This document shows, one piece after another, positions 38,535 to 54,274 of a stretch of DNA of 64,000 nucleotides; the first letter of the stretch is position 1, and every line of letters starts with the position of its first letter. The notes under the pieces are model-generated. The model ran no database searches. It had not been told where the DNA came from and was given only the letters and a program-made list of their open reading frames with translations. Source of the DNA: Infirmifilum lucidum (lineage in GTDB: Archaea; Thermoproteota; Thermoprotei; Thermofilales; Thermofilaceae); the NCBI RefSeq assembly GCF_014876775.1, contig NZ_CP062310.1, forward strand, positions 1,341,699 to 1,405,698. The letters run 5' to 3'. Made by a program: the position numbers and the translations under genes.

Positions 38535-38556
38535 CTTTCTAATTTAAACGAAATTG

Positions 38557-41500
38557 ATGGTAAAGAAAGCCATCACATCATTCCTTCTAATTTCCCTATT
38601 AGTCTCAACGGTTTTCCTCAAAACAATAAAAACTCAGACAATACCTGACGATGTGTACTCGCATTTACTAAAAGGGGAAAGCGTTACAGGTTGGGTAGAG
38701 GTAAAATATGGTAATACAACGCTTATAAACTACACGCTCTCAAGCGGAGAATACCTCCTATACAGCGTTGGCACAGGCTCTGTAGTCCTCGGAAAGAAAT
38801 GGTTTATGCCTGAAAGCGAAAGCCTAGACGTTTTCGCCATAGCATTCTACGACTCCCGGAAACCCCTCAAAGATCTCAGTGCCTACGACTACTGGGTGAG
38901 AGGGTCACATTGGAAAAGAGGAGTCGAAAAAGGGGAAGAATACCTGAATAAACGCCAGATTCAAGGAGCACTGGCTACACTAGCCGTAGTAGCTGTTCTC
39001 TTTGCCCTCTTTCCCCCTTCTTCAGCAATAGCTCTCTGTCTCTTCGCGCTATCTGCTACCACTGATTTTATCACTACGCTATCTAAAATAGAAGAGAACT
39101 TTAAACTGGGCCCTGAGACTTCTCCAAAGCTATATTTCGTGTTGGCCTTTATTGCGAGTAATATGGATGAAAAAGCGAGGGAAGCCTCGGACGAGTTTGA
39201 ATCCTTACTAAATAAAATTTCGGATGAGGAATTCAAAGAGACAGTCAAAAGTCTTAAAGATTTCAACATGTTCGTGGAGGGCTCTCGCGAATTAGCGAAA
39301 TACTATACTCTTCTCTCCACTATAGTCGCATACAAGGCTCTAAGCGGGACGATGCAACCCGAAACTGTGGAGAAAGTAATTTCTTTCTACGTCTTCGATG
39401 AAGGTCATAATAAAGCACGGGAGTTCTTGAATACGCTGGAGAATTGGTATGCCGGCAATATTAATCCAGGTGAACTTGGAGACAAGCTTTTAAACATTAT
39501 AGCCGCCGACGCCGTCAGAATAGGAGTTTCAGCGGCACTAAAGTTCGCGAAAGATTACTTTATAATCGAAGCTTTTAAAGGTAGCGACAAGATTATGGGC
39601 TTCCACTACATCCACTCCTCTCTACTGTCTTCTCTCTATGGTACCATGGCTAATTTGAAAAGTAAGATAGACAAGGGCGGGGTTGAGCCGAGCCTCTCGT
39701 TAGTGTCTAAGTTGTTGTTCTATGATTACCTAACCTATGAGCTTGAACTTGAATACTGGGAAGGGCTGAGTAAGCTGGATTGTAGCGATATATATGATCT
39801 TCCAGGCGAGCTACGTGATTTCCTAGGGCTCAAGCCTCCTAGCTGGACTCCAGGGACACAAACTGAGAGGTACTGCGCTCAGGTCAAAAGTCTATTTGAT
39901 CTCTCTCGCATTCTTGTTTCATCATCTAGCGCTGGGGCCTTGAAGAGGCAGCTCGAGTACTATGAGAGTCTTCGCGACGCGTATGAGAGGTACAGGAGTA
40001 TTATGGCTAAGAGGCGAGGAGATCTTGTCCCGGGTAGTGGTGTAAATGTTATGCTGGTTGTAGATGTTTCGGGGAGTATGGATGATAGCTTCAGGGGTGC
40101 TAGGAAGATTGACGCCGCTATTGACGCTGCTAAGACTTTCATCTCGCTGCTATCTCCAAGCGACAGAGCCGGTATTGTAAAGTTTTCGGACTCAGCGTCG
40201 CTGGTGGCCCCCCTCACCGGCGATAAAACCGCCCTGTACCAGTTGCTCGGTACTCTAACCCCCGAGGGCATGACTGCGATCGGCGATGGATTGAAGCTGG
40301 CTTTGAGCGAGCTCGACAAAGTTAGTGGCGTCAGAGCAGTAGTGCTACTTACGGATGGCAAAAACAATGCAGGACAATATAATCCCGTTGACGTGGCTCA
40401 CGAAGCGTCGGCGAAAAATATCCCCGTATTCACTCTCGGCTTCGGTGAGAAGGGAGACATTGATGAAGACCTGCTCAAGAGGATAGCGTTGATTACCAAC
40501 GCGCTGTACTTTTACGCGCCCTCCCCCGAGGATCTCAAGAAGATATATTCCATGCTTGCCATTAGAACTGTAGGTGGCGTCCCGATATACCACCTTGTGT
40601 CTACAGTTAAGCAGGGGGAGGAGAAGAAGGTAGAAATTGAAGTTACGCGCGACATGGACTTCGTAGGGGCCCGGCTCTCATACGTGGGGAGTCTCATAAA
40701 CCTAACCCTGATTAGCCCGAGTGGAAGGGTAATTAGAGGCGTCGAATCATACGTAGCTAGGACAAGCATGCCTGGATACGAGTCAGTAATCGTGTACAAC
40801 CCAGAGCCCGGCCTCTGGAGAGTCGTCGTAAGAGGAGTCCAAGTCCCACAGGGAGGCGAGAGCTTTACACTAGTGGTGTATAGGCCCAGTATAGTCGTAG
40901 ACCGGAGGGTCGTGTCGGCGAGTGCGAGGCCCGGGGAGAGAGTTACAGGCACTATCACGATCAGAGCTCTCCAGCCAGTTACAAACCTGGGAGTCGAAGT
41001 CCGGGGCGAGTTAGCAGGTCTTATGCGCGTATCGCCCTCTAGCGTTCCTCGGGTTGAGCAGGGAGGCGTTGCAACCATAAGTTACGATATAACCGCTCCC
41101 ACCGACGCCGCGAGGCCCGTGCTTACAGGTACTATTGTTATAAGAGTTGGCGTTTTAAACACGTTCATTCCAGTGACGCTAGCTCTCAAGTCGCTCATTC
41201 TCAACGTGATGGTGAACGAAACGAAGTTCATAGAGGGCGAAAAACTAGCTGTCACTGCCCTGGTAAGCAACTTGACGGGAGCTAGACTCGCTGGAGCGAG
41301 AGTAGAGATGAAGTACCTGGGAACAGCCGTGTTATTAAACGAGACTAGTGAAAGCGCCTACACGGCTACTATACCTCTAAAGGCTAGGGGCTCGGTGAAG
41401 ATAGAGTTCACAGCTACTTACGCCGACTACCCACCATCAAGGTACTCCCTGACCGTCCAAGTATTCCCACGCGGCGATGTAAACACTGATGGCGTAGTTG

Positions 41501-41640
41501 ACTACAGGGACGTCGCACTAGTAATAGCGAACTACGGCAACACCACCATTAACCGTTTCATAGATCTAAATAGAGACTCCATAGTCGACTACAGAGACCT
41601 AGCCATAATACTGGGAAACTACGGGCAAACCTCCCATTGA
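38557..41640 (+). CDS. Secreted VWA-domain protein with C-terminal dockerin
   Basis: About 1027 residues. A signal peptide (1-27) precedes a helical region with a hydrophobic stretch near 130-170. A complete VWA domain follows at about 496-675, whose MIDAS is DVSGSMDD (from Asp503), TPEGMTAIGDG and LLTDGKNN. Then come beta-sandwich domains (SARPGERVTGTITIRALQP, FIEGEKLAVTALVSNLTGA), and a C-terminal type I dockerin pair (GDVNTDGVVDYRDVALVI and IDLNRDSIVDYRDLAIIL, about 974-1024) with two Ca2+-binding loops. It should be an exported, metal-dependent adhesion protein that can dock onto a cohesin. No cohesin is recognised in the window. Start ATG 38557 is chosen over TTG 38554. Confidence 0.85.
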   Translation: MVKKAITSFLLISLLVSTVFLKTIKTQTIPDDVYSHLLKGESVTGWVEVKYGNTTLINYTLSSGEYLLYSVGTGSVVLGKKWFMPESESLDVFAIAFYDSRKPLKDLSAYDYWVRGSHWKRGVEKGEEYLNKRQIQGALATLAVVAVLFALFPPSSAIALCLFALSATTDFITTLSKIEENFKLGPETSPKLYFVLAFIASNMDEKAREASDEFESLLNKISDEEFKETVKSLKDFNMFVEGSRELAKYYTLLSTIVAYKALSGTMQPETVEKVISFYVFDEGHNKAREFLNTLENWYAGNINPGELGDKLLNIIAADAVRIGVSAALKFAKDYFIIEAFKGSDKIMGFHYIHSSLLSSLYGTMANLKSKIDKGGVEPSLSLVSKLLFYDYLTYELELEYWEGLSKLDCSDIYDLPGELRDFLGLKPPSWTPGTQTERYCAQVKSLFDLSRILVSSSSAGALKRQLEYYESLRDAYERYRSIMAKRRGDLVPGSGVNVMLVVDVSGSMDDSFRGARKIDAAIDAAKTFISLLSPSDRAGIVKFSDSASLVAPLTGDKTALYQLLGTLTPEGMTAIGDGLKLALSELDKVSGVRAVVLLTDGKNNAGQYNPVDVAHEASAKNIPVFTLGFGEKGDIDEDLLKRIALITNALYFYAPSPEDLKKIYSMLAIRTVGGVPIYHLVSTVKQGEEKKVEIEVTRDMDFVGARLSYVGSLINLTLISPSGRVIRGVESYVARTSMPGYESVIVYNPEPGLWRVVVRGVQVPQGGESFTLVVYRPSIVVDRRVVSASARPGERVTGTITIRALQPVTNLGVEVRGELAGLMRVSPSSVPRVEQGGVATISYDITAPTDAARPVLTGTIVIRVGVLNTFIPVTLALKSLILNVMVNETKFIEGEKLAVTALVSNLTGARLAGARVEMKYLGTAVLLNETSESAYTATIPLKARGSVKIEFTATYADYPPSRYSLTVQVFPRGDVNTDGVVDYRDVALVIANYGNTTINRFIDLNRDSIVDYRDLAIILGNYGQTSH

Positions 41641-42653: not shown

Positions 42654-43982
42654 GTGCCTGAGTTTTCAGATCTGCTCGTAGAGCAGGTTAGGCTTAACCG
42701 GGCGTGGATCGAGAAGGTTTTAGGGGCTACTGCTGGCCTAGCCGAGTGGTACAGGGGGCTCGTACTGGGTAAGTGGAACAGTCTTCCCCGGGGAGACGCC
42801 AGAGTAGAGGCTGTGTACGCCGTTGACAGCAGTAGTGGCCTGATAGAAGTGTCCGGCGGGGGTGTCTTGCTGGTAACCCGTGCTCTCTCGCTCAGCGTGG
42901 GCGGGAAGCAGAAGAGGCGGCTGGCTGTTGACGCTCTCTACCCGCGAAACCTAATGGACTTCGAGCACTATGTCCGCCTCACGCGGGAACACCTCGAGCA
43001 TCTAGTAGCTCTGGATTCCTTAGATGAGGATCCGAGGTTCGTCCTAGTAGACGGGTCGCTGTACGGGAGGATGATTCACGTCCTAAAGGATCTAGACCTC
43101 GAGGACAGGGAGGACTTCATGTTCACGTACGTCGAGACGTACAGCAGTTTCCTAAGGGAGGCGTTGAACAGAGGGGTTACGGTTGTGGGCGTCAGCAAGG
43201 ACTCGAGATCAACTCTGTTCAAGGAGGAGGTGCTTAAGGAAGAAGTGGTGAGGGTTGCCCGCGAGAACGGTGTCGACGTTTCAGAACTCCTCGCTCTCTG
43301 GGCTTGGTTGAAGCGTAGACCCCGGGAGGTCTTGAAGGAGGTGAGGAAGAGAGCTAGCTCTGGTCTTTACCCGGCTAGGATATACGAGCTATTCGAGGAG
43401 GCGAGGTCTTCTACTCCGGACTCAAAGATACTCCTCTACGCCAGGCCCGGTGAAGGCTACACGACACCTCTGCTCCTGAAGATTTCCAAGGTTCAAGCTG
43501 GGCAGATAGAGGTGGCTCTGGACGAGAGTGTAGGCGACCAGGTTGAGAAATTGGGGAGGTTTTTCTCAAAGAGTAGGGATAAGATGGGCGAAGAGTTTGA
43601 GGAGAAGGTGAAGGCCCTTGTCTCTATGCTGAAAGAGTATCCTCCCGTGGCGACGTTCTATGCTATTCTCGGCCACGGAGACGACCCCATACGCGTCGAC
43701 GTTGTCTCGAGGGAACTGCAGGAGTTAGGAGTGGCTAAGAATAGCCTTGCTCTAGACTCGAGCAAGTTTATAAGTAGTGACGTTAAGGGCATAACCGGGG
43801 TTATTTCACTTCTAAGGAGCATGTATGCTGGGGTTAAGGACTATAATATTCTTCTGATGGAGGCTGACCGCAGGGTTAAAATCACCGAGAGGAGTCTTGA
43901 GATATACCGTGGTATCCTCATGAAAGAGCTCGGCGCGTACTTCCTCCCCTCGAGAGGTGAGAGGCGTGTCCACTACCCTTAG
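42654..43982 (+). CDS. nurA: NurA 5'-3' nuclease
   Basis: 442 residues. The NurA active-site start is AVYAVDSSSGLIEV near residue 57 and the second metal site VLVDGSLYGR near 127; VVGVSKDSRS and the C-terminal YNILLMEADRRVKI also fit the family. NurA forms a toroidal nuclease that works with HerA to resect DNA ends for homologous recombination. GTG start at 42654. First gene of a four-gene block with 26-nt overlap into herA, so translationally coupled. Confidence 0.88.
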   Translation: MPEFSDLLVEQVRLNRAWIEKVLGATAGLAEWYRGLVLGKWNSLPRGDARVEAVYAVDSSSGLIEVSGGGVLLVTRALSLSVGGKQKRRLAVDALYPRNLMDFEHYVRLTREHLEHLVALDSLDEDPRFVLVDGSLYGRMIHVLKDLDLEDREDFMFTYVETYSSFLREALNRGVTVVGVSKDSRSTLFKEEVLKEEVVRVARENGVDVSELLALWAWLKRRPREVLKEVRKRASSGLYPARIYELFEEARSSTPDSKILLYARPGEGYTTPLLLKISKVQAGQIEVALDESVGDQVEKLGRFFSKSRDKMGEEFEEKVKALVSMLKEYPPVATFYAILGHGDDPIRVDVVSRELQELGVAKNSLALDSSKFISSDVKGITGVISLLRSMYAGVKDYNILLMEADRRVKITERSLEIYRGILMKELGAYFLPSRGERRVHYP

Positions 43983-45582
43983 GCTTGTGGGGAGGATTGT
44001 AGAGGAGGCGACGCCCGAGAGCTTCATATTCGTCACCTCAAAGGAGGAACACCCCCCGAAGTTCGAGTACGTGGCCGTGAAGTCTAGGGAACGAGTTTCG
44101 GGGCGCCTAGAGGAAGTCTACGTGCTCGCGCAAGTCGTCGGAGTGGTGTCCAGAAGTAGCGCCTTTACGTCGAGGCTCGATCTGGAAACGCTCGAGAGAG
44201 TCTACAGTGCAGGTATAGATGACTCGAACATACTCTGCATGGCTAGAACCCTCGGTTTTCTGGCGAATGAGGATGGGAGGAAAGCCGTCCTCATGCCGAG
44301 AAGGGCCCTCTTCCCGGGTAACCCCGTCTACCTCGCCCCAGACGAGCTGGTAAGAGAGTTCTTCTCTTATAGCCCTGACGAGGGGCTCCATATCGGGAGC
44401 CTCGTCTCGAGACCCTCTATTCCAGTCTACCTCAGCTTGAACGGATTTAGGCGGCACGTAGCCGTGATAGCCCAGACCGGTGCAGGGAAATCCTACACTG
44501 TAGGAGTGATGCTTGAAGAGCTTCTAAGGCTAGGAGGCACAGCTATAGTCATCGACCCACACGCAGACTACGTTTTCCTGAGCAGGACGCGCGACATGAG
44601 GAGGCACGAGTTCTCAGACAGGATACTGATCTTCAGGAACCCTAACAGCACGGGCAGGTACTCGCCGGAGCAGCTCGACAATGTCCATGAGCTCGTCTTC
44701 AAGTTCTCAGAGCTCGACGGAGACGAGGTAGCTGAGATTGCAGGCATACCAGAAGGTTGGGCTAACGTTAGGAGCGCTATAAGAGAGGCCGTTAAGGCTC
44801 TTAGAGAGGAGAAGAAGGCAGGCTACACGGTAAGAGACCTTCTAGAAAAGCTCGAAAGAATGAGCAGGACGCTAGATGAGAGGAAGAAGCGGGAAGCGGC
44901 ATCAAGAGCATATGCCCACTTGAGGGGTCTAGCCAAGTTCACCGTGTTCGGCGACAGGACTACACCGGTAAAAGACGAGATACTGCGTCCGGGCCATGTC
45001 TCCATACTAGACCTCTCGGGGTTAAACGACGCGAGCCAGGACTACATCGTCAGCAGGGTACTCGAAGAAGTATTCGCTCTGAGGTCAACGGGCCAGTTCC
45101 CGTCGCCGGTCTTCGTAGTGATAGAGGAGGCCCACAGGTTTGTCCCGAGTAAGGCCGCTAAGAGGAAGACTATGTCTGCCCAGATAATCAATACGATCGC
45201 GGCCGAAGGGAGGAAATTCGGTGTCTTCCTGATACTCGTGACCCAGAGGCCGAGCAAGATTGACGCCGACACTTTAAGCCAGTGCAACAGCCAGATAATC
45301 CTGAGGATAACGAACCCGCTTGACCAGAGGGCTGTAGCAGAGTCCAGCGAGAGACTGGGAGAAGAACTCATGAAGGATCTCCCGGGGCTCAACGTTGGAG
45401 AGGCGATAATCGTCGGCGAATTAACACGTATACCCGTCATAGTCAAGGTTCGCGAGAGGGTGACGAGAGAGGGCGGTGCAGATATAGACCTCGTAGAGGA
45501 GCTTAGGAAGACTAGGGAGGAGCTCGGCCTCGCAACGCCTAGAGCCCCTCCGCCTCCTAGCGGCAGCTTCTCGGAGGTGTAA
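43957..45582 (+). CDS. herA: HerA bipolar DNA translocase/helicase
   Basis: 541 residues. An N-terminal HAS barrel (about 1-130) is followed by a FtsK/HerA-type RecA core: Walker A AQTGAGKSYTVGVML, VIDPHADYVF, Walker B VFVVIEEAHRF, the sensor-like LVTQRPSKID and an arginine-finger region near IILRITNPLDQRAVAESS. It forms a hexamer that pumps DNA into NurA. GTG start at 43957 overlapping nurA. Ends 5 nt before the mre11 start. Confidence 0.93.
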   Translation: MRGVSTTLRLVGRIVEEATPESFIFVTSKEEHPPKFEYVAVKSRERVSGRLEEVYVLAQVVGVVSRSSAFTSRLDLETLERVYSAGIDDSNILCMARTLGFLANEDGRKAVLMPRRALFPGNPVYLAPDELVREFFSYSPDEGLHIGSLVSRPSIPVYLSLNGFRRHVAVIAQTGAGKSYTVGVMLEELLRLGGTAIVIDPHADYVFLSRTRDMRRHEFSDRILIFRNPNSTGRYSPEQLDNVHELVFKFSELDGDEVAEIAGIPEGWANVRSAIREAVKALREEKKAGYTVRDLLEKLERMSRTLDERKKREAASRAYAHLRGLAKFTVFGDRTTPVKDEILRPGHVSILDLSGLNDASQDYIVSRVLEEVFALRSTGQFPSPVFVVIEEAHRFVPSKAAKRKTMSAQIINTIAAEGRKFGVFLILVTQRPSKIDADTLSQCNSQIILRITNPLDQRAVAESSERLGEELMKDLPGLNVGEAIIVGELTRIPVIVKVRERVTREGGADIDLVEELRKTREELGLATPRAPPPPSGSFSEV

Positions 45583-45587
45583 AGGAG

Positions 45588-46751
45588 ATGATAAGAGTCG
45601 TGCACACCGCCGATAACCACCTTGACCCCAAATTGGGCTTTATGGGCGCCAAGGCCCAGGAGAGGCGCCTGGACTTCTACAAGTCATTCCTAAAGGTTGT
45701 CGAGTTCTCGCTAGAGACCAGGCCCCACATACTCTTGGTCTCCGGGGACTTGTTCGACTCGGTAAACCCGAGGAACCCTATACGGACGAGGGTCTTGCAG
45801 GCATTCAGGAGACTTAGCTCAGAGGGCGTCAGGATTTTCGCCATAGGCGGCAACCACGACATGCCGCGCTCGCAGGAGGAGGGGATGTCGCCGCTAAGCG
45901 AACTCGAAGCCGCAGGGTACGTAACCTTCTTCTCAGAGCTCAACCAGTTTAGAGTAGAGCACATAAACGTTGAAGGCTACGATGTGGCCGTTACTGGGCT
46001 GTCTTACGACCACACGCTGGAGGCCTCTTCTAACCCGCTCCGGTACTACAACCTCAAGATACCGCTAGAGGGCGACGTGAACATAGCCATGCTACACTAC
46101 AATTTTGCGGGCTTCAACATCCCCAGGAACTGGGCTGCCCCAACTATAACGCCAGAGGACGTACCCGAGGGCCTCGACTACCTCGCGCTGGGCCACCTAC
46201 ACGCGCACTCTCACGCTGTCATCAAGAACGCATACGTAGTCTACCCCGGGAGCACTGAGAGGAGGAGCTTCAACGAGGAGTCGGACGAGAAGAAAGGCTT
46301 CGTCTACACAGAGATCAATCCCTCAAGGGGCGTCGTGCTACGCTTCAACGAGGTTCCTACTAGGCGCCTGAGGACTGTTGAAGTCCAGGTCGACGAGAGC
46401 GTCGAGAACCCCACCGCGCGCGTCCTGGCCTCTGTGCCGGCCCCAGACCCCCAGATGATCCTGAGGATCGTGGTTTCCGGGAGAGTTGCGCTAGAGAGGC
46501 TCTCGAAGTACAGCAGGGCCGAGATCCTGAAGAGGCTTAGCGACCGCTTCTTCTACACAGTGATTGACGACTCGGAGCTCAAGTGCATCATCAAGGAGAT
46601 CCGGGTCTCGCTCGACACAGCCTCTCCGATAGAGTCCTACAAGCAGTACGTCGAAGAGGCGATGAAAAACGCTAGCGCAGACGAGCTGAGTGTTTGGAAG
46701 AGGGCCCTCAATGTTGGGCTACGAGTCCTACAAGAGGTGGGGGCATGGTAG
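45588..46751 (+). CDS. mre11: Mre11/SbcD-family nuclease
   Basis: 387 residues of the calcineurin-like phosphoesterase fold. It has HTADNHLDPKLG, VSGDLFDSVNPRNP, IGGNHDMPRS, IAMLHYNFAG and YLALGHLHAHSH, giving all metal ligands of Mre11. A capping domain follows, then a helical C-terminus (IKEIRVSLDTASPIESYKQY) that should bind the coiled coil of the Rad50 partner. Start ATG 45588 has GGAG (45584-45587) directly before it. It overlaps the Rad50-like gene by 7 nt. Confidence 0.9.
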   Translation: MIRVVHTADNHLDPKLGFMGAKAQERRLDFYKSFLKVVEFSLETRPHILLVSGDLFDSVNPRNPIRTRVLQAFRRLSSEGVRIFAIGGNHDMPRSQEEGMSPLSELEAAGYVTFFSELNQFRVEHINVEGYDVAVTGLSYDHTLEASSNPLRYYNLKIPLEGDVNIAMLHYNFAGFNIPRNWAAPTITPEDVPEGLDYLALGHLHAHSHAVIKNAYVVYPGSTERRSFNEESDEKKGFVYTEINPSRGVVLRFNEVPTRRLRTVEVQVDESVENPTARVLASVPAPDPQMILRIVVSGRVALERLSKYSRAEILKRLSDRFFYTVIDDSELKCIIKEIRVSLDTASPIESYKQYVEEAMKNASADELSVWKRALNVGLRVLQEVGAW

Positions 46752-49273
46752 TCATAAGGAGCCTAAGGGCGATCAACTTCAGGAGACTGAATATCCCAGA
46801 GCCGCTACAGCTGGACAGGGGCTTTATAATAATCAAGGGGCGCAACGAGGCCGGCAAGTCTACACTAATAGAGGCTACACTCTTCGGCATATACGGCGAC
46901 CACCAGGCTATTGGAGCCATAAGGGGCAACCCGCAGAGGGGGTATGCAGAAGTCGTTAACCACAGGTCGCGGCGCGCCCTCGTAGAAGTAGAATTTGAGG
47001 TCGAGGGGAGGAGATACAGAGTTGTACGGGAGCTGGAGAGGGAGGGAGACTCCATCAAGCAGACTAGTGCTAGGCTTATTGAAGTGACGAGTAGTGAGAG
47101 GCTTATCGCGACGGGAGTCAAGGCCGTTAACGAGGAAGTCCAGAGAATCCTCCGCGTCTCGTGGCGGGAAATGCTGACTACGAATATCGTGGCGCAGAAG
47201 GATCTCGAGAGGATAATTGAGATGAGTAAGGGGGACAGGGAGAGGATTATAAACCTCATGATGGGTCTCGAGAGCTACAACAAGGCTATCTCCATTCTAG
47301 ACGAGGAGAGGCGTGAGAAGGAGAGGAGGAAGAGCGAGCTCGAGAAGAGCATTAGGGAGCTCGAGGGGAAAATTGGAGAGCTCGAGAAGCTCAAGGAGGC
47401 GATCGTGGAGTGGAGAAATGCTCTCAGGAACATCCAAGACGAGCTCCCCAAGCTCCTGGAGAGGGAGAAGACCCTAAAGCTGGCCAGAGACTACCTGGAA
47501 GAGCTCTACAAAGCCCTGATGGCGAGGTCGAAGATAGAGAGCGAAATTAAGGTCCTAGAGGGGCAGGCAAAAACCCTACGCCAGGCCATAGAGGACGCTG
47601 AGAGGCGACTGAGAGAATACGAGAGTGAGTTGAAAGCTATCAGCGAGAAGAGGCCTCTCGTCGCCCAGGAGCTCGACAAGATAGGTAGCGAGCTCAAACA
47701 GGTGCAGGAGATGCTGCGCAAGAGCTCAGAGCTTCTCTTGGAGATGAAGAGGTACTACAATGAACGGGAAGAAATTGTGAGCAGGATTAATCGGCTTGCC
47801 GAGCGGATCTCAAGCTCCGAGCTCGAGGTAAAGCGCTTGGAGGCAGCCCGTGCTGAAATCGAAGAGCTTAGGGCACAGAAGAGCAGGCTGGAAGAGAGGC
47901 TTTCTCACCTCTCTACACCCCTCTGGGTTAAGGTAGGAGCTGTAGTATCACTGTCCGTTGCGGTTCTATCCCTGCTTCTGCTAAACCCACTGGTCTCGGC
48001 TTTAGTGTCCCTACCCGGCATTGCCCTGGCACTAATTGCTGCCTGGAGGGTGAAACTCCAGCACTCCCTGAGAGATCAGGTTGTGAAGCTGGAGTCAGAG
48101 CTGAAGGCCAGGGAGGCCCTTATCCCGAGCTTCGAAAGAGAGAGAAGCGTGCTCGAAGAACTGCTCAAGGAGAAAAGTGCCCTTGAGGCGCGAGTCAAAG
48201 AACTCGAGGAACTGGTGTCTAGAGTTGTCGGCGAATATGGGCTTGGCAGAGAGTCACTTGCAGACGCCATAGATGCTCTGGAGGGAGAGGTTGAAAGGCT
48301 CAAGTCCCGGGAAGAGGAGCTCAGGAGGGGCCTGGCAGAACTAGAGGCCGAGGAGAAGGCCCTGGAGGATGTCGAGAAGAGAAGGAGGAACGATGTCGAA
48401 GACCTCCAGAGGCAGCTCGAGGAGCTAAGGTCAGGGCTTGGCCGTGTGGAGGAAGAGAGGAGGCGCTTAGAGGAAGAGTACAGAGGTATAGCGCTACCAC
48501 ACCCCCCTCAGGAATTGGCAAGTCTAGCCGAAAGCGGAGCACTCACGCCACAAACCCCTACACTTGACACGGTTAAAGCCGCGATAGGCCGTGTGGTAGA
48601 CGAGCTGAATAAGATTGCGCAGACTCGCGCCACGTGGGAGACGCGCATGCTAGACCTCAGGGAGAGGATTAGAGAGGCCGAAGAGAAGGTATCCCAGCTG
48701 GACAAGCTGAGAGGCGACGCGGAAGCTCTCCGTAGCGAGTTACAGCAAGCCGAAGAAGACATTGCAGTCGCGCTAAAGGCAATCGAGGCCATGAGGGAGA
48801 TCTCTAAGAAGAGGCGCGAGGCTTTCGCGCCAAGCGTTGAGAACTACATGAGCTGGGTTATCTCGTACTTTACAGATGGGAGGTACAGGGCTGTCAAGCT
48901 AAACCCGGAGAACTACGACATAGAGGTATACGACTCTGAGGCTGGGAGGTGGATGCGCAGGGACATATACTCCGGGGGCACAAACGACCAGTTCCTGCTC
49001 GCCATGAGGATAGCCTTCACACTAACTCTGCTACCGGGCGCTAAGGGCTCCTACCCGAGGTTCCTGGTGCTCGACGAGCCCCTGGGGTCTTCAGACGTCG
49101 AGAGGAGAGAGCGTATAATGAAGTTCTTCACGGGTGAGCTCACAAGGTACTTCGACCAGATATTCCTCATAACTCACGTCGACGTAGACGAGCCCCCAAA
49201 CTCGACGGTTGTTTACATAGAGGATGGGCGCATAGCAAGGGTTAGCAGGGTGGAGCAACCCGAGGAACAGTAA
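46745..49273 (+). CDS. Rad50/SbcC-like ATPase with a transmembrane hairpin instead of a zinc hook
   Basis: 842 residues. Walker A GRNEAGKST is near residue 31, a long coiled coil follows, then ABC signature YSGGTNDQFLLAMR, Walker B FLVLDEPLGSSD and ITHVDVDEP. Rad50 normally has a CxxC zinc hook at the coiled-coil apex. This protein contains no cysteine at all. At the exact middle (about 394-437) two hydrophobic helices occur instead (VKVGAVVSLSVAVLSLLLL and LVSLPGIALALIAAW). A membrane hairpin at this place is known from the bacterial YhaN-type SbcC relatives. ATG 46745 overlaps mre11 (ATGGTAG). The genetic context says double-strand break end processing; the hairpin says membrane anchoring. 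Confidence 0.85.
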   Translation: MVVIRSLRAINFRRLNIPEPLQLDRGFIIIKGRNEAGKSTLIEATLFGIYGDHQAIGAIRGNPQRGYAEVVNHRSRRALVEVEFEVEGRRYRVVRELEREGDSIKQTSARLIEVTSSERLIATGVKAVNEEVQRILRVSWREMLTTNIVAQKDLERIIEMSKGDRERIINLMMGLESYNKAISILDEERREKERRKSELEKSIRELEGKIGELEKLKEAIVEWRNALRNIQDELPKLLEREKTLKLARDYLEELYKALMARSKIESEIKVLEGQAKTLRQAIEDAERRLREYESELKAISEKRPLVAQELDKIGSELKQVQEMLRKSSELLLEMKRYYNEREEIVSRINRLAERISSSELEVKRLEAARAEIEELRAQKSRLEERLSHLSTPLWVKVGAVVSLSVAVLSLLLLNPLVSALVSLPGIALALIAAWRVKLQHSLRDQVVKLESELKAREALIPSFERERSVLEELLKEKSALEARVKELEELVSRVVGEYGLGRESLADAIDALEGEVERLKSREEELRRGLAELEAEEKALEDVEKRRRNDVEDLQRQLEELRSGLGRVEEERRRLEEEYRGIALPHPPQELASLAESGALTPQTPTLDTVKAAIGRVVDELNKIAQTRATWETRMLDLRERIREAEEKVSQLDKLRGDAEALRSELQQAEEDIAVALKAIEAMREISKKRREAFAPSVENYMSWVISYFTDGRYRAVKLNPENYDIEVYDSEAGRWMRRDIYSGGTNDQFLLAMRIAFTLTLLPGAKGSYPRFLVLDEPLGSSDVERRERIMKFFTGELTRYFDQIFLITHVDVDEPPNSTVVYIEDGRIARVSRVEQPEEQ

Positions 49274-50920: not shown

Positions 50921-53900
50921 ATGAAAATATGTACTTCTTACCCATTGAAGATCCTCTTCATAATACTAATGCTCTTATTGATCTTTAGTACTGATCTGAG
51001 TATTGTACAAAGCATAAATGAAAAGTCAAGTGAGGCGCTACGATACCCTACAGAAGACCAGGGTCTCGGCATAAATAAAAAGTCAAGTGAGGAGAGGATT
51101 GATTACATTATCATAACAACCTCGAAATTTATTGATCCAGCAATGAAATTAGCCTCATATAAAAATAAAACCGGTACGATTACTAAAGTTATCACTATGG
51201 AAACAATGAGTGAGATAGAAATAAGGAATTTGATAAAGAAATATTATGATATCTATGGAATAAGATATGCTTTACTAATCGGTGATATTAATATAATACC
51301 TACAGCATACATCTTTAATCCTGCTCCTCTTTCTCCTGAAGAAGAATGGTACGGTTTCAATATTGGCTACACTGCAAGTGACTACTACTATGCTGCATTT
51401 GATGAAATTCAAGTTGAAGTACCTACTAGATTCGATTATTTTCCAGAAGTTTTCATTGGTAGATTTCCTGCAAGGAATGTGGAAGAAGCTCACATAATGG
51501 TTTCAAAAACAATTCGCTGGCTCGAAAATATAAAGAAAGAAGACAAGATTACTTTCCTCATTGCTGCACTAGGGCAAAACCCACATATCCCATATATTAA
51601 AGGCTTCATCCCCCCGTCTGTTAAGGTAGAAACCCTTATTGAGGAGTCCTTAAATAAAGAGACATTTATAAAGACGATAAATGAGCTTAAACCTCATCTA
51701 GTGGTATATGTAGGACATGGATACATAGATTCTCTTTCAAATGCCATCTCCATAAGAGATCTTGATAAATTGAGCGTCAAACCTTTTATATTCTTTGCTG
51801 ATGCATATTTATCGGCGGCCTTTGATACGGAGAATTCACTCAACGAGCAAATCCGGAGAATGGAATCACTTGGAGAAGCATTATTGAGGCATGAAAATGG
51901 TGCTGTTGCATACATAGGAGCTACGAGGCTTGTATGGACTAATGGACAAATGGCAAAGTACTTCATGGCATCGCTTCTATTATCTAGAAATCATACTATT
52001 GGTGAAGCGTTATATCAGTCAAAGCTACATTTAATACACCACGACTTCGGTCCTTACGATTTTTGGGTTGCAGGTAGGAGGGGAGATAGAATTTTTGAGA
52101 TGTATTTGAGAGACTTCCTTGCCTACAATTTGTTGGGGGATCCTCAAATTTTTGTTCCATATAAGGAGGAAGCCAGGTTTTTAGAGCAGGGATTAAAACT
52201 ATCCAAACATGAGAGAGTTGTTATTAATAATACGATTCTTTATGTTGGATATAAATTTGGTTATAAACATGATAAGTATATCCAGGAGATATTCACGAAT
52301 ATAGTAATTGACGGTGGAGAGTTAGTAATAGAAAATTCCATTGTCATATTACCTGAATTTAAGCCCTTTGCTCTCTACCATACTGGTCCCCTGGTTCCCG
52401 GTATGCACAGAGCAATTTACGAGGCATATTCAAAGATTATTTTAACATCACAAGATTCTAAATTACTCATTAAAAACTCAAAAATCGTAAATCTGCTCAC
52501 TCCGTATGGGGAAGAGCATGGACTATTTGGAGCTACCATAAAAGTATTTAAGGGAATTGTAGACATTACTGATAGTTTTCTCATTACTGGCATCACCGTA
52601 ATACTTAAGGAAACGGAATCAATGAATATTAAGCTAACACATTATACAGCTAGTTTCTCATGCAATGATATTAAAATCTCTAATGTTAATAGTTTTATCT
52701 TGACATGGAATATTGTAGCAGACAAGCTAAATAATGTTAAATTGGAGGGTAAATTCAATCATATTGTTTTAACAAATTCTAAAGGTGTATTTATTGAGAA
52801 ATCGGAGCTTGAAATGCTAGATTCATATAGCTCGGAGGTTACAATAGTTAGTTCTAGTATTAAAGGTAGTAGTGATGGTTACAATAGTACAATGTACTTT
52901 ATTAATAGCTGGATGCTCATGTGGGGTGGTTCCAGTAAAAGCGTGATATATTTTATCAATTCTTCAAATACTTGCAGTGCTGGCTTATGGAATTCAATCG
53001 GCATAGTTATTAATTCACGCGTGAGTGCTATGAACTTATATAATGCGTCAAGTTTAATTATACATAACTCAGAAGTAGAGCCCTTACGTAAGGATCCAAA
53101 CTCCATCGCTTACAAGTTATCTGATATATTCGTTCTTAAAATAAGACCTTCATGGATTATTAGGAACTTATCTTATGTTCCTACCACTTATTATCCTATA
53201 GTTTTTGACTCTCTACTATTCATGGTACGTAATGCATCTTATACTTTAAAACTACCACTTTACGTACATGTAAGTGATGTTGAGAGGTATAAATTTGATG
53301 GTTGGTATGTAAATGGAACCCTCGTCAGTAATGAAACGAGCATCGATTTACATGGTTCGCTGATTAACAAGCTCATTAAAACGTTATCTATACCCATTCC
53401 TGCCCTTAAGGAGCCTTTAATTCTTCCATGTATTACTATCGACGTCAAGTTGACGGCTAAACAATACTACCTTGAAGTTGTCAGCGAGCAGGGCAGTGCA
53501 ACAGGCTCAGGCTGGTACGACGAGGGGGCGACAGCTTATGCCTCCATCAGCACAACAATTATACCTATTGATGATAAGAGTAGGTGGGCCTTCCAAGGGT
53601 GGAGCGGCGATGCCAGGGGGCAGGGGCAGAGGTCTGAGCCTATAGTCATGAACTCCCCGAAGGTAGCTGTGGCAAAGTGGGCTAAAGAGTACAAAGTCTC
53701 TGCATATTCTCCTGTAGGGGAAATATACGTCTGTAGAGAGGACGGAACCTGCATGAGAAACCTAGGTAAGAGCTACTCGGGCTGGCACCCTGAGGGCAGT
53801 AGCATCGAAGTTGGTGTAAAAGAGACTTCAATAGGCTTTCCCGTACGGGACGTCTTTGCTGGCTGGAGAGGGCTGGGCCCCTATGACTCTGAAGAAGTTA

Positions 53901-54274
53901 GCAGGGGTGTTGCCTACGTAAGGGTCGACGCCCCCAAAGAGCTAGAGGCTGAGTGGAGGAAGGACTATACGCCGCTCGCAACCATACTAGCTGTCGTCTC
54001 ACTGCTCGGTGCCCTGTCTGTATTCCTCGCCGCTAAAGGTTACGTTGCACGCGTGCCTCTCCTCCAGGCATTGAGGAAGACTACAGTTAAGGGAGAGGGA
54101 GTAGAGGGTACGCGCGTTAGGGACTACTGCCTCGAGAGGATCCATGAAGCAGAGGGTAAGCTCAAAAAACTCGAAGAGATGAAGGGAGAGCTAGACCCAG
54201 AAGTCTACGGCAAGCTCAGGAAGGAATACCTCGACGAGCTTGAGAAAGTAAGGAAAGAGTGCCCCTACTCCTAG
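50921..54274 (+). CDS. C25 (gingipain-like) peptidase-fold surface protein with shared C-terminal cassette
   Basis: 1117 residues. Signal helix (10-30); a caspase-like C25 domain (about 60-420) with YALLIGDINIIPTAYI, YFPEVFIGRFPARNVEEA, VVYVGHGY (His266) and GAVAYIGATR. The usual nucleophile Cys position in this family (AC..aaFD) is Tyr296 here (DAYLSAAFD), so proteolysis is probably lost. A beta-helix-like Asn/Ile/Ser region follows (about 430-780). From KQYYLEVVSEQG (about 846) to the end it is almost identical to the protein at 35561: two InlB-like repeats, membrane helix and cytoplasmic coil KGELDPEVYGKLRKEY. The first 2.5 kb are very AT-rich, unlike the cassette. Confidence 0.75.
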   Translation: MKICTSYPLKILFIILMLLLIFSTDLSIVQSINEKSSEALRYPTEDQGLGINKKSSEERIDYIIITTSKFIDPAMKLASYKNKTGTITKVITMETMSEIEIRNLIKKYYDIYGIRYALLIGDINIIPTAYIFNPAPLSPEEEWYGFNIGYTASDYYYAAFDEIQVEVPTRFDYFPEVFIGRFPARNVEEAHIMVSKTIRWLENIKKEDKITFLIAALGQNPHIPYIKGFIPPSVKVETLIEESLNKETFIKTINELKPHLVVYVGHGYIDSLSNAISIRDLDKLSVKPFIFFADAYLSAAFDTENSLNEQIRRMESLGEALLRHENGAVAYIGATRLVWTNGQMAKYFMASLLLSRNHTIGEALYQSKLHLIHHDFGPYDFWVAGRRGDRIFEMYLRDFLAYNLLGDPQIFVPYKEEARFLEQGLKLSKHERVVINNTILYVGYKFGYKHDKYIQEIFTNIVIDGGELVIENSIVILPEFKPFALYHTGPLVPGMHRAIYEAYSKIILTSQDSKLLIKNSKIVNLLTPYGEEHGLFGATIKVFKGIVDITDSFLITGITVILKETESMNIKLTHYTASFSCNDIKISNVNSFILTWNIVADKLNNVKLEGKFNHIVLTNSKGVFIEKSELEMLDSYSSEVTIVSSSIKGSSDGYNSTMYFINSWMLMWGGSSKSVIYFINSSNTCSAGLWNSIGIVINSRVSAMNLYNASSLIIHNSEVEPLRKDPNSIAYKLSDIFVLKIRPSWIIRNLSYVPTTYYPIVFDSLLFMVRNASYTLKLPLYVHVSDVERYKFDGWYVNGTLVSNETSIDLHGSLINKLIKTLSIPIPALKEPLILPCITIDVKLTAKQYYLEVVSEQGSATGSGWYDEGATAYASISTTIIPIDDKSRWAFQGWSGDARGQGQRSEPIVMNSPKVAVAKWAKEYKVSAYSPVGEIYVCREDGTCMRNLGKSYSGWHPEGSSIEVGVKETSIGFPVRDVFAGWRGLGPYDSEEVSRGVAYVRVDAPKELEAEWRKDYTPLATILAVVSLLGALSVFLAAKGYVARVPLLQALRKTTVKGEGVEGTRVRDYCLERIHEAEGKLKKLEEMKGELDPEVYGKLRKEYLDELEKVRKECPYS

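Follow-up and report, generated by a model that had tools for sequence, protein, structure and literature searches.

The window analyzed here is a stretch of 64,000 nucleotides (nt) of Infirmifilum lucidum (positions 1,341,699-1,405,698 of a genome that consists of one contig of 1,625,846 bases and is 99.95 % complete). It contains an operon with the gene order nurA-herA-mre11-rad50-like. The Rad50-like protein has no zinc hook and carries, at the tip of its coiled coil, a hydrophobic segment predicted to form a membrane hairpin. As judged from sequence and structural models, the operon probably encodes a membrane-anchored DNA-end processing machine.

Operon organization and ATPase head

All four genes are located head to tail on the (+) strand between positions 42654 and 49273. 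The nurA and herA genes overlap by 26 nt, a gap of 5 nt separates herA from mre11, and mre11 shares 7 nt with the rad50-like gene. A first-pass annotation of the window had assigned these genes to the archaeal end-resection operon, with mre11 directly upstream of the rad50-like gene and overlapping it; this assignment was confirmed by Pfam, which identified nurA, herA, and mre11 in front of the rad50-like gene. The following features were located:

42654..43982 (+): nurA, 442 amino acids (aa), nuclease; Pfam NurA, 1.1e-14
43957..45582 (+): herA, 541 aa, DNA translocase; Pfam DUF87/HerA central domain, 6.7e-42
45588..46751 (+): mre11, 387 aa; Pfam Metallophos, 9.4e-11; motifs DNH, GD, GNHD, HY, and GHLH found by motif scan
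46745..49273 (+): rad50-like gene of the predicted membrane-hairpin type, ATG start, 842 aa, no cysteine
46838..46864 (+): Walker A GRNEAGKST, residues 32-40
47924..48055 (+): central hydrophobic hairpin including boundary residues, residues 394-437, from hydropathy and AlphaFold2
47921..47980 (+): first hairpin helix, residues 393-412, from AlphaFold2
47987..48046 (+): second hairpin helix, hydrophobic part, residues 415-434, followed by the positive flank RVK
48971..48991 (+): ABC (ATP-binding cassette) signature SGGTNDQ, residues 743-749, of the GTxDQ kind; wider motif YSGGTNDQ
49064..49081 (+): Walker B LVLDEP, residues 774-779

The codon TTG at position 46694 was rejected as start of the rad50-like gene because homologues start at ATG 46745. 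HerA scored 227 bits with the NCBIfam model helicase_HerA, under the cut-off of 970 bits.

Motifs, structural model, and Foldseek search identified a split ABC-ATPase head and a long antiparallel coiled coil in the Rad50-like protein, which are the hallmarks of Rad50. All three motifs, Walker A (GRNEAGKS), the signature (YSGGTNDQ), and Walker B (LVLDEP), were found intact, as had been annotated. The best match of the head to Rad50 heads in the PDB was 1.5e-19. Foldseek returned 7zr1_D, a chain of an Mre11-Rad50-Nbs1 structure, as the top PDB match of the model with SMC proteins close behind; the root mean square deviation is meaningless here owing to the long coils. The best score with NCBIfam Rad50 models was 124 bits at a cut-off of 700, which none of 14 control genomes passed either. 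With its GTxDQ pattern, the signature is like those of bacterial YhaN-like sequences, whereas hook-type sequences carry SGGE.

A central hydrophobic hairpin in place of the zinc hook

The translation of 46745-49273 does not contain a single cysteine, as annotated previously, and the CxxC hook of canonical archaeal Rad50 is absent. Two hydrophobic helices had been placed at the exact center of the protein (about residues 394-437), and hydropathy, a 38-residue charge-free stretch, and AlphaFold2 agree on this location. The top 19-residue Kyte-Doolittle windows reached 2.36 (residue 395) and 2.15 (residue 416). The longest stretch free of D, E, K, and R comprised 38 residues (397-434) at 0.49 of the protein length; in 20,000 composition shuffles such stretches had a mean of 13.5 and a maximum of 39 residues, and none of a further 20,000 shuffles reached 38. 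AlphaFold2 predicted a helix from residue 176 to 388, a break, a helix from 393 to 412, a two-residue turn, and a helix from 415 to 457. The tip modeled alone had a pLDDT (predicted local distance difference test) of 87, with 73-82 for the hairpin blocks.

The hairpin recurs among relatives. All 21 sequences of the hairpin type had a hydropathy window of ≥1.6 at 0.47-0.52 of their length, with two separate hydrophobic windows in 14 and one in 7. The charge-free tip stretch comprised 38-48 residues in 19 of the 21 and only 22-23 residues in L114 and L174 (L and G numbers designate loci and genomes). Within this set, some residues of L161 are masked, the sequences of L171 and L172 start late, and L186 ends at a contig edge. 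A central hydrophobic window was found in none of 13 hook-set, 6 arcadin-type, and 5 SbcC sequences, some of which are fragments; two arcadin-type sequences duplicate proteins of other entries. The hook set includes L060 and L182, which look arcadin-like, and L209 and L210, which are also hookless; L180 and L211 have a hydrophobic window in the C-terminal head instead of the center.

The 12 residues preceding the hairpin contained 3.33 K/R vs. 1.43 D/E, the 12 residues following it 3.48 vs. 0.90. Against a coil background of 2.44 K/R and 2.69 D/E, this positivity was significant (Wilcoxon test, 9e-5 and 6e-5) for sequences that are related and not independent. Such an excess of positive charge before and after the hydrophobic segment is the pattern of an inside-inside membrane hairpin rather than that of a soluble bundle. 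For the best window at the tip, octanol transfer energies ranged from -6.5 to -15 kcal/mol among the ten hairpin-type sequences tried, and from -1.2 to +4.3 kcal/mol among four controls (two archaeal hook proteins, one arcadin, one SbcC). From sequence statistics and structure prediction we infer that the tip segment inserts into the membrane as a hairpin whose two ends face the cytoplasm.

Bacterial relatives

A scan of named genomes yielded at least 44 loci, two archaeal and 42 bacterial; the scan motifs favor this head type, and the number is no census. The AAA_27-type bacterial sequences are presumably members of the family named SbcE/YhaN-like; YhaN of B. subtilis itself was not among them. 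Four of four YhaN-like sequences given to Pfam exceeded the AAA_27 cut-off of 22 bits, the window protein stayed below it with 18.1 bits, and two others of the hairpin type scored 21.3 and 28.8 bits. The first-pass annotation had stated that bacterial YhaN-type proteins share the membrane hairpin; indeed, a clear near-central hairpin was found in 32 of 37 bacterial YhaN-like sequences measured among the matches listed. Among these matches, 35 of the 42 bacterial loci had an mre11-like gene, and no match to herA or nurA was found at any of the 42. Five of the 42 loci are not counted among the 37. L133 lacks a hairpin, the truncated L139 and L156 do show a hydrophobic stretch, L143 is a long frame in which no such stretch occurs, and L149 is short or in the wrong frame.

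The window protein thus resembles the SbcE/YhaN-like proteins in its central hydrophobic hairpin, in the missing hook, and in its signature, which is YSGGTNDQ as compared to mostly LS[RKS]GTx[DE]Q in the bacterial sequences extracted (the GTx[DE]Q pattern was defined from sequences of this analysis and is not curated). It differs by the herA and nurA genes beside it and, as described below, by its position in the trees.

Closer relatives were found in Chloroflexota, the phylum of G402 (Thermogemmatispora tikiterensis). Of 201 genomes, 26 matched the archaeal hairpin type at 1e-30. Among 14 loci fetched, 12 encoded the hairpin, 12 carried mre11, and two also carried nurA and herA, which form complete nurA-herA-mre11-hairpin rad50 operons:

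L257 588-7845: Chloroflexota operon
L262 1-8070: Chloroflexota operon

The Chloroflexota proteins resemble the window type in the hairpin and are nearest to it in head, Mre11, and HerA trees, but they are mostly longer (1027-1326 aa in 12 of 14).

Phylogeny of head, Mre11, and HerA

In a tree of Rad50 heads rooted on SMC, the hairpin type grouped with two Chloroflexota sequences (99/97). This group was sister to 20 bacterial YhaN-like sequences (96/90), and both together were joined with SbcC (96/90), leaving archaeal hook Rad50 and arcadin-4 outside. Hence, the phylogeny against archaeal Rad50 and YhaN suggested by the first-pass annotation places the head as sister to the YhaN-like sequences, neither inside their clade nor with hook Rad50. 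This tree was computed by the careful method with two SbcC sequences and with hook sequences of this phylum, none of them euryarchaeal; its deep branches are long. Unrooted quick trees of head and Mre11 also linked the window type to Chloroflexota with a support of 97 each, and the Mre11 of the window type stood apart from 28 bacterial partner sequences (97). In the HerA tree, the hairpin type grouped with two Chloroflexota sequences and the HerA of one hook operon, L211 (100/99), whereas HerA of the hook operons of the order fell into another clade; a long-branch warning applies to the deep split.

Upon signature extraction, seven sequences were lost for missing motifs (including T_L171 and T_L172) and seven fragments or repeats were skipped. 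Five sequences were omitted from the Mre11 tree and six from the unrooted head tree; the rooted head tree lacks the same six and a further seven that were near-copies or formed long branches. The SMC sequence L235 was dropped by the motif filter, and the hook Rad50s of ten loci from other families were not included in the head trees.

Most simply, the hairpin and the GTxDQ signature would be traits shared by two sister groups. The head, Mre11, and HerA trees part the two kinds of operon, which argues for a separate descent of the hairpin operon as a whole, although both share the four-gene order, the overlaps, the nuclease and ATPase motifs, and the pairing with Mre11. The hairpin stands at the position of the hook, as had been proposed, but the trees do not support a canonical archaeal Rad50 in which the hook was exchanged. 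This is a distinct Mre11-Rad50-HerA-NurA module, which was probably exchanged between domains.

Distribution in archaea

The order of the window, Thermofilales, was represented by 27 genomes, of which 15 have the hairpin type, 8 the full hook type (>390 bits to the hook profile), while 4 show neither of them clearly (52-85 % complete). Both types occur inside family f1, to which the window belongs. In 13 of the 15 hairpin-type genomes nurA and herA are both adjacent, and the other two loci end at contig edges. In a phylum sample of 398 genomes, 23 matched the hairpin type at 1e-40; nine of these belong to other classes and fall under six family codes. At ten loci chosen from other families of the class, Rad50 invariably has a CPxC hook and its gene is accompanied by herA and mre11. 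The hook thus seems to be the default in the class, as judged from these loci picked among genome-search matches; class members without a match were not examined. The best explanation is that the hairpin module represents a lineage of its own, scattered over Thermoproteota and Chloroflexota, which appears to replace the hook operon in part of the order.

Strict mutual exclusion of the types was rejected. A second, non-hairpin operon was found in 4 of 24 hairpin-type genomes and in none of the other 20, several of which are incomplete; the hook check did not extend to weak Rad50-like matches in open frames of about 590-680 and 1,130-1,250 aa. G006 and G089 combine a hairpin operon with a CPLC hook operon; in G076 and G161, the second operon has neither hook nor hairpin. 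The second operon of G006, a genome of the same genus, is located on an 11.5 kb contig (L180 4741-11244, G006:C14) in the order mre11, rad50 with CPLC hook, nurA, herA, and is possibly an accessory copy. Those of G076 (L209 6488-12250) and G161 (L210 6062-11838) have the order nurA-herA-mre11-rad50 and encode a third, hookless kind of Rad50 of 758-759 aa with neither CxxC nor hydrophobic tip. In G089 (L211 1935-8566, G089:C45), a hook-type rad50 and mre11 stand beside herA of the hairpin lineage, and nurA scores better to the hairpin type; this mixed operon suggests that operon halves can be reshuffled.

Other Rad50 relatives and neighboring genes

A hook Rad50 encoded elsewhere and pairing with this Mre11 would have spoken against the first-pass annotation. 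A search of the genome with the model Mre11_Sulfo found a single Mre11, that of the operon, and a second canonical Rad50-Mre11 pair was rejected, as the genome searches gave only the operon and an arcadin-4-like protein, the sole CxxC relative of Rad50 found. The remaining matches of the Rad50 search, which spanned parts of coils or were short, were not inspected singly. The arcadin-4-like protein adjoins crenactin:

L041 6603-8999 (-): arcadin-4-like protein, central CQVC, SDGQ signature
L002 4028-4615 (-): crenactin, next door

It is likewise a Rad50-like coiled-coil ATPase (260.6 bits, E 2.7e-77, under the 860-bit Rkd4 cut-off), but it differs from the hairpin protein in keeping CxxC, in its SDGQ signature, in the adjacent crenactin, in that no mre11 was found alongside, and in its separate clade in the rooted tree. 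The hairpin protein has neither this signature nor this neighborhood, and the two are different genes. Weaker Rad50-like matches in G002, G006, G017, and G025 all have CPVC and no mre11 match beside them in the stretches fetched; three of them carry the arcadin-like signature SDGQ, and that of G002 is cut.

Just downstream of the operon, 50921-54274 (+) encodes a large protein with a Peptidase_C25 domain (Pfam, 8e-45). A VWA-domain protein encoded at 38554-41640 (+) has a C-terminal dockerin-like stretch scoring 22.8 bits, just below the cut-off of 22.9. An identity of the operon as anti-phage system was rejected, as the PADLOC matches were general only (LmuB 123 bits, HerA 186 bits); other system genes were not sought.

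Proposed mechanism and alternatives

By homology, two Rad50-like subunits would dimerize via their ATPase heads and hold Mre11 at a DNA end like any Mre11-Rad50 complex. Each coiled-coil arm would end in the two-helix hairpin dipping into the cytoplasmic membrane, both ends inside. The 213 helical residues of the arm (176-388 in the AlphaFold2 model) correspond to about 30 nm at a helix rise of 0.15 nm per residue. Mre11-Rad50 would then open the end and HerA-NurA of the same operon would resect it, so that resection would take place near the membrane. End tethering may survive, as two hairpins could still pair and bridge ends. Processing of ends by Mre11-Rad50 and HerA-NurA has been studied in other archaea.

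Several observations weigh against this reading. The best hydropathy window of the window protein was matched by 484 of 20,000 composition shuffles; single-protein hydropathy is therefore weak by itself, and recurrence across relatives is the decisive point. AlphaFold2 confidence in the hairpin was low to moderate, with a pLDDT of 81 for the full-length protein and 51-57 over residues 391-430. The Mre11 tree united archaeal sequences, weakly (59). The hairpin was missing in five of the 37 bacterial sequences: L117 is incomplete, no hairpin is present in L130, L140, or L142, and L115 has only an alanine-rich stretch off center (L115 was counted within the 33 bacterial sequences of the flank analysis and is excluded from the 32 with hairpin). 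Chloroflexota loci L264 (3483-7166) and L269 (2751-6434) encode proteins of 1227 aa with neither hydrophobic tip nor CxxC. In G344, G369, and G396, which share a family code, hairpin-type mre11-rad50 has neither herA nor nurA within the flanks fetched, and the same holds for the stretches fetched at 12 of the 14 Chloroflexota loci; HerA-NurA is therefore not an obligatory neighbor. Membrane fractionation, localization, or a phenotype of an archaeal member was not found in the literature surveyed.

Alternatively, the hairpin may reside in the membrane with DNA entering or leaving at the envelope as its main task (Ced/Ted-type exchange or invading DNA) and not general repair. We regard this as unlikely. 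A cited report on B. subtilis YhaN points this way by its title, yhaO and yhaN are listed in the SOS regulon of Bacillus pumilus in an excerpt of PMC3896406, and an excerpt of PMC9905601 places HerA, plus rad50 in Pyrobaculum/Vulcanisaeta, beside archaeal Ted DNA-transfer genes and proposes a NurA-HerA link. Where a second operon exists, it would be left with ordinary repair; however, in the 20 genomes without one, general repair would lack Mre11-Rad50. Furthermore, six of ten neighboring window genes matched Pfam with nothing Ced/Ted-like and four remained unmatched; Ced/Ted genes were not specifically sought.

The hairpin could also be soluble, two hydrophobic tips forming a four-helix bundle that joins two Rad50s without zinc and does the job of the hook. 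The hairpin occupies the hook position, no other dimerization element is seen at the tip, and a protein free of cysteine would suit heat. However, the transfer energies are those of membrane segments, positive residues predominate in both flanks, and such a bundle would be expected to expose polar or charged outer faces, yet 38-48 residues are free of charge in 19 of 21 sequences. Thus, we give this explanation little credence. An ordinary archaeal Rad50 whose hook was swapped for a hairpin locally within the order is highly improbable: the operon order equals that of hook-type neighbors and most genomes of the order have one type, but the head groups with YhaN-like proteins (96/90), Mre11 with Chloroflexota (97), and HerA falls into a different clade.

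Significance

The zinc hook is regarded as joining Rad50 molecules and thereby tethering DNA ends. A natural lineage in which a predicted membrane anchor joins the usual nuclease, translocase, and resection partners would uncouple what the head does from what the hook does. In titles and abstract openings of the open literature, most subscription papers being outside this scope, no membrane-spanning Rad50 or SbcC was described. What we claim as new is the module that includes HerA-NurA in archaea and Chloroflexota and not the hairpin as such, since the hairpin of YhaN may already be noted in databases or papers.

Tentatively, a mobile four-gene membrane-bound resection module of archaea and Chloroflexota might work at the envelope, where hook bridging could be dispensable and ends be anchored to the membrane instead. 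The hairpin lineage would put the processing of archaeal DNA ends at the envelope, and hook-operon relatives of the same family code provide a ready natural comparison.

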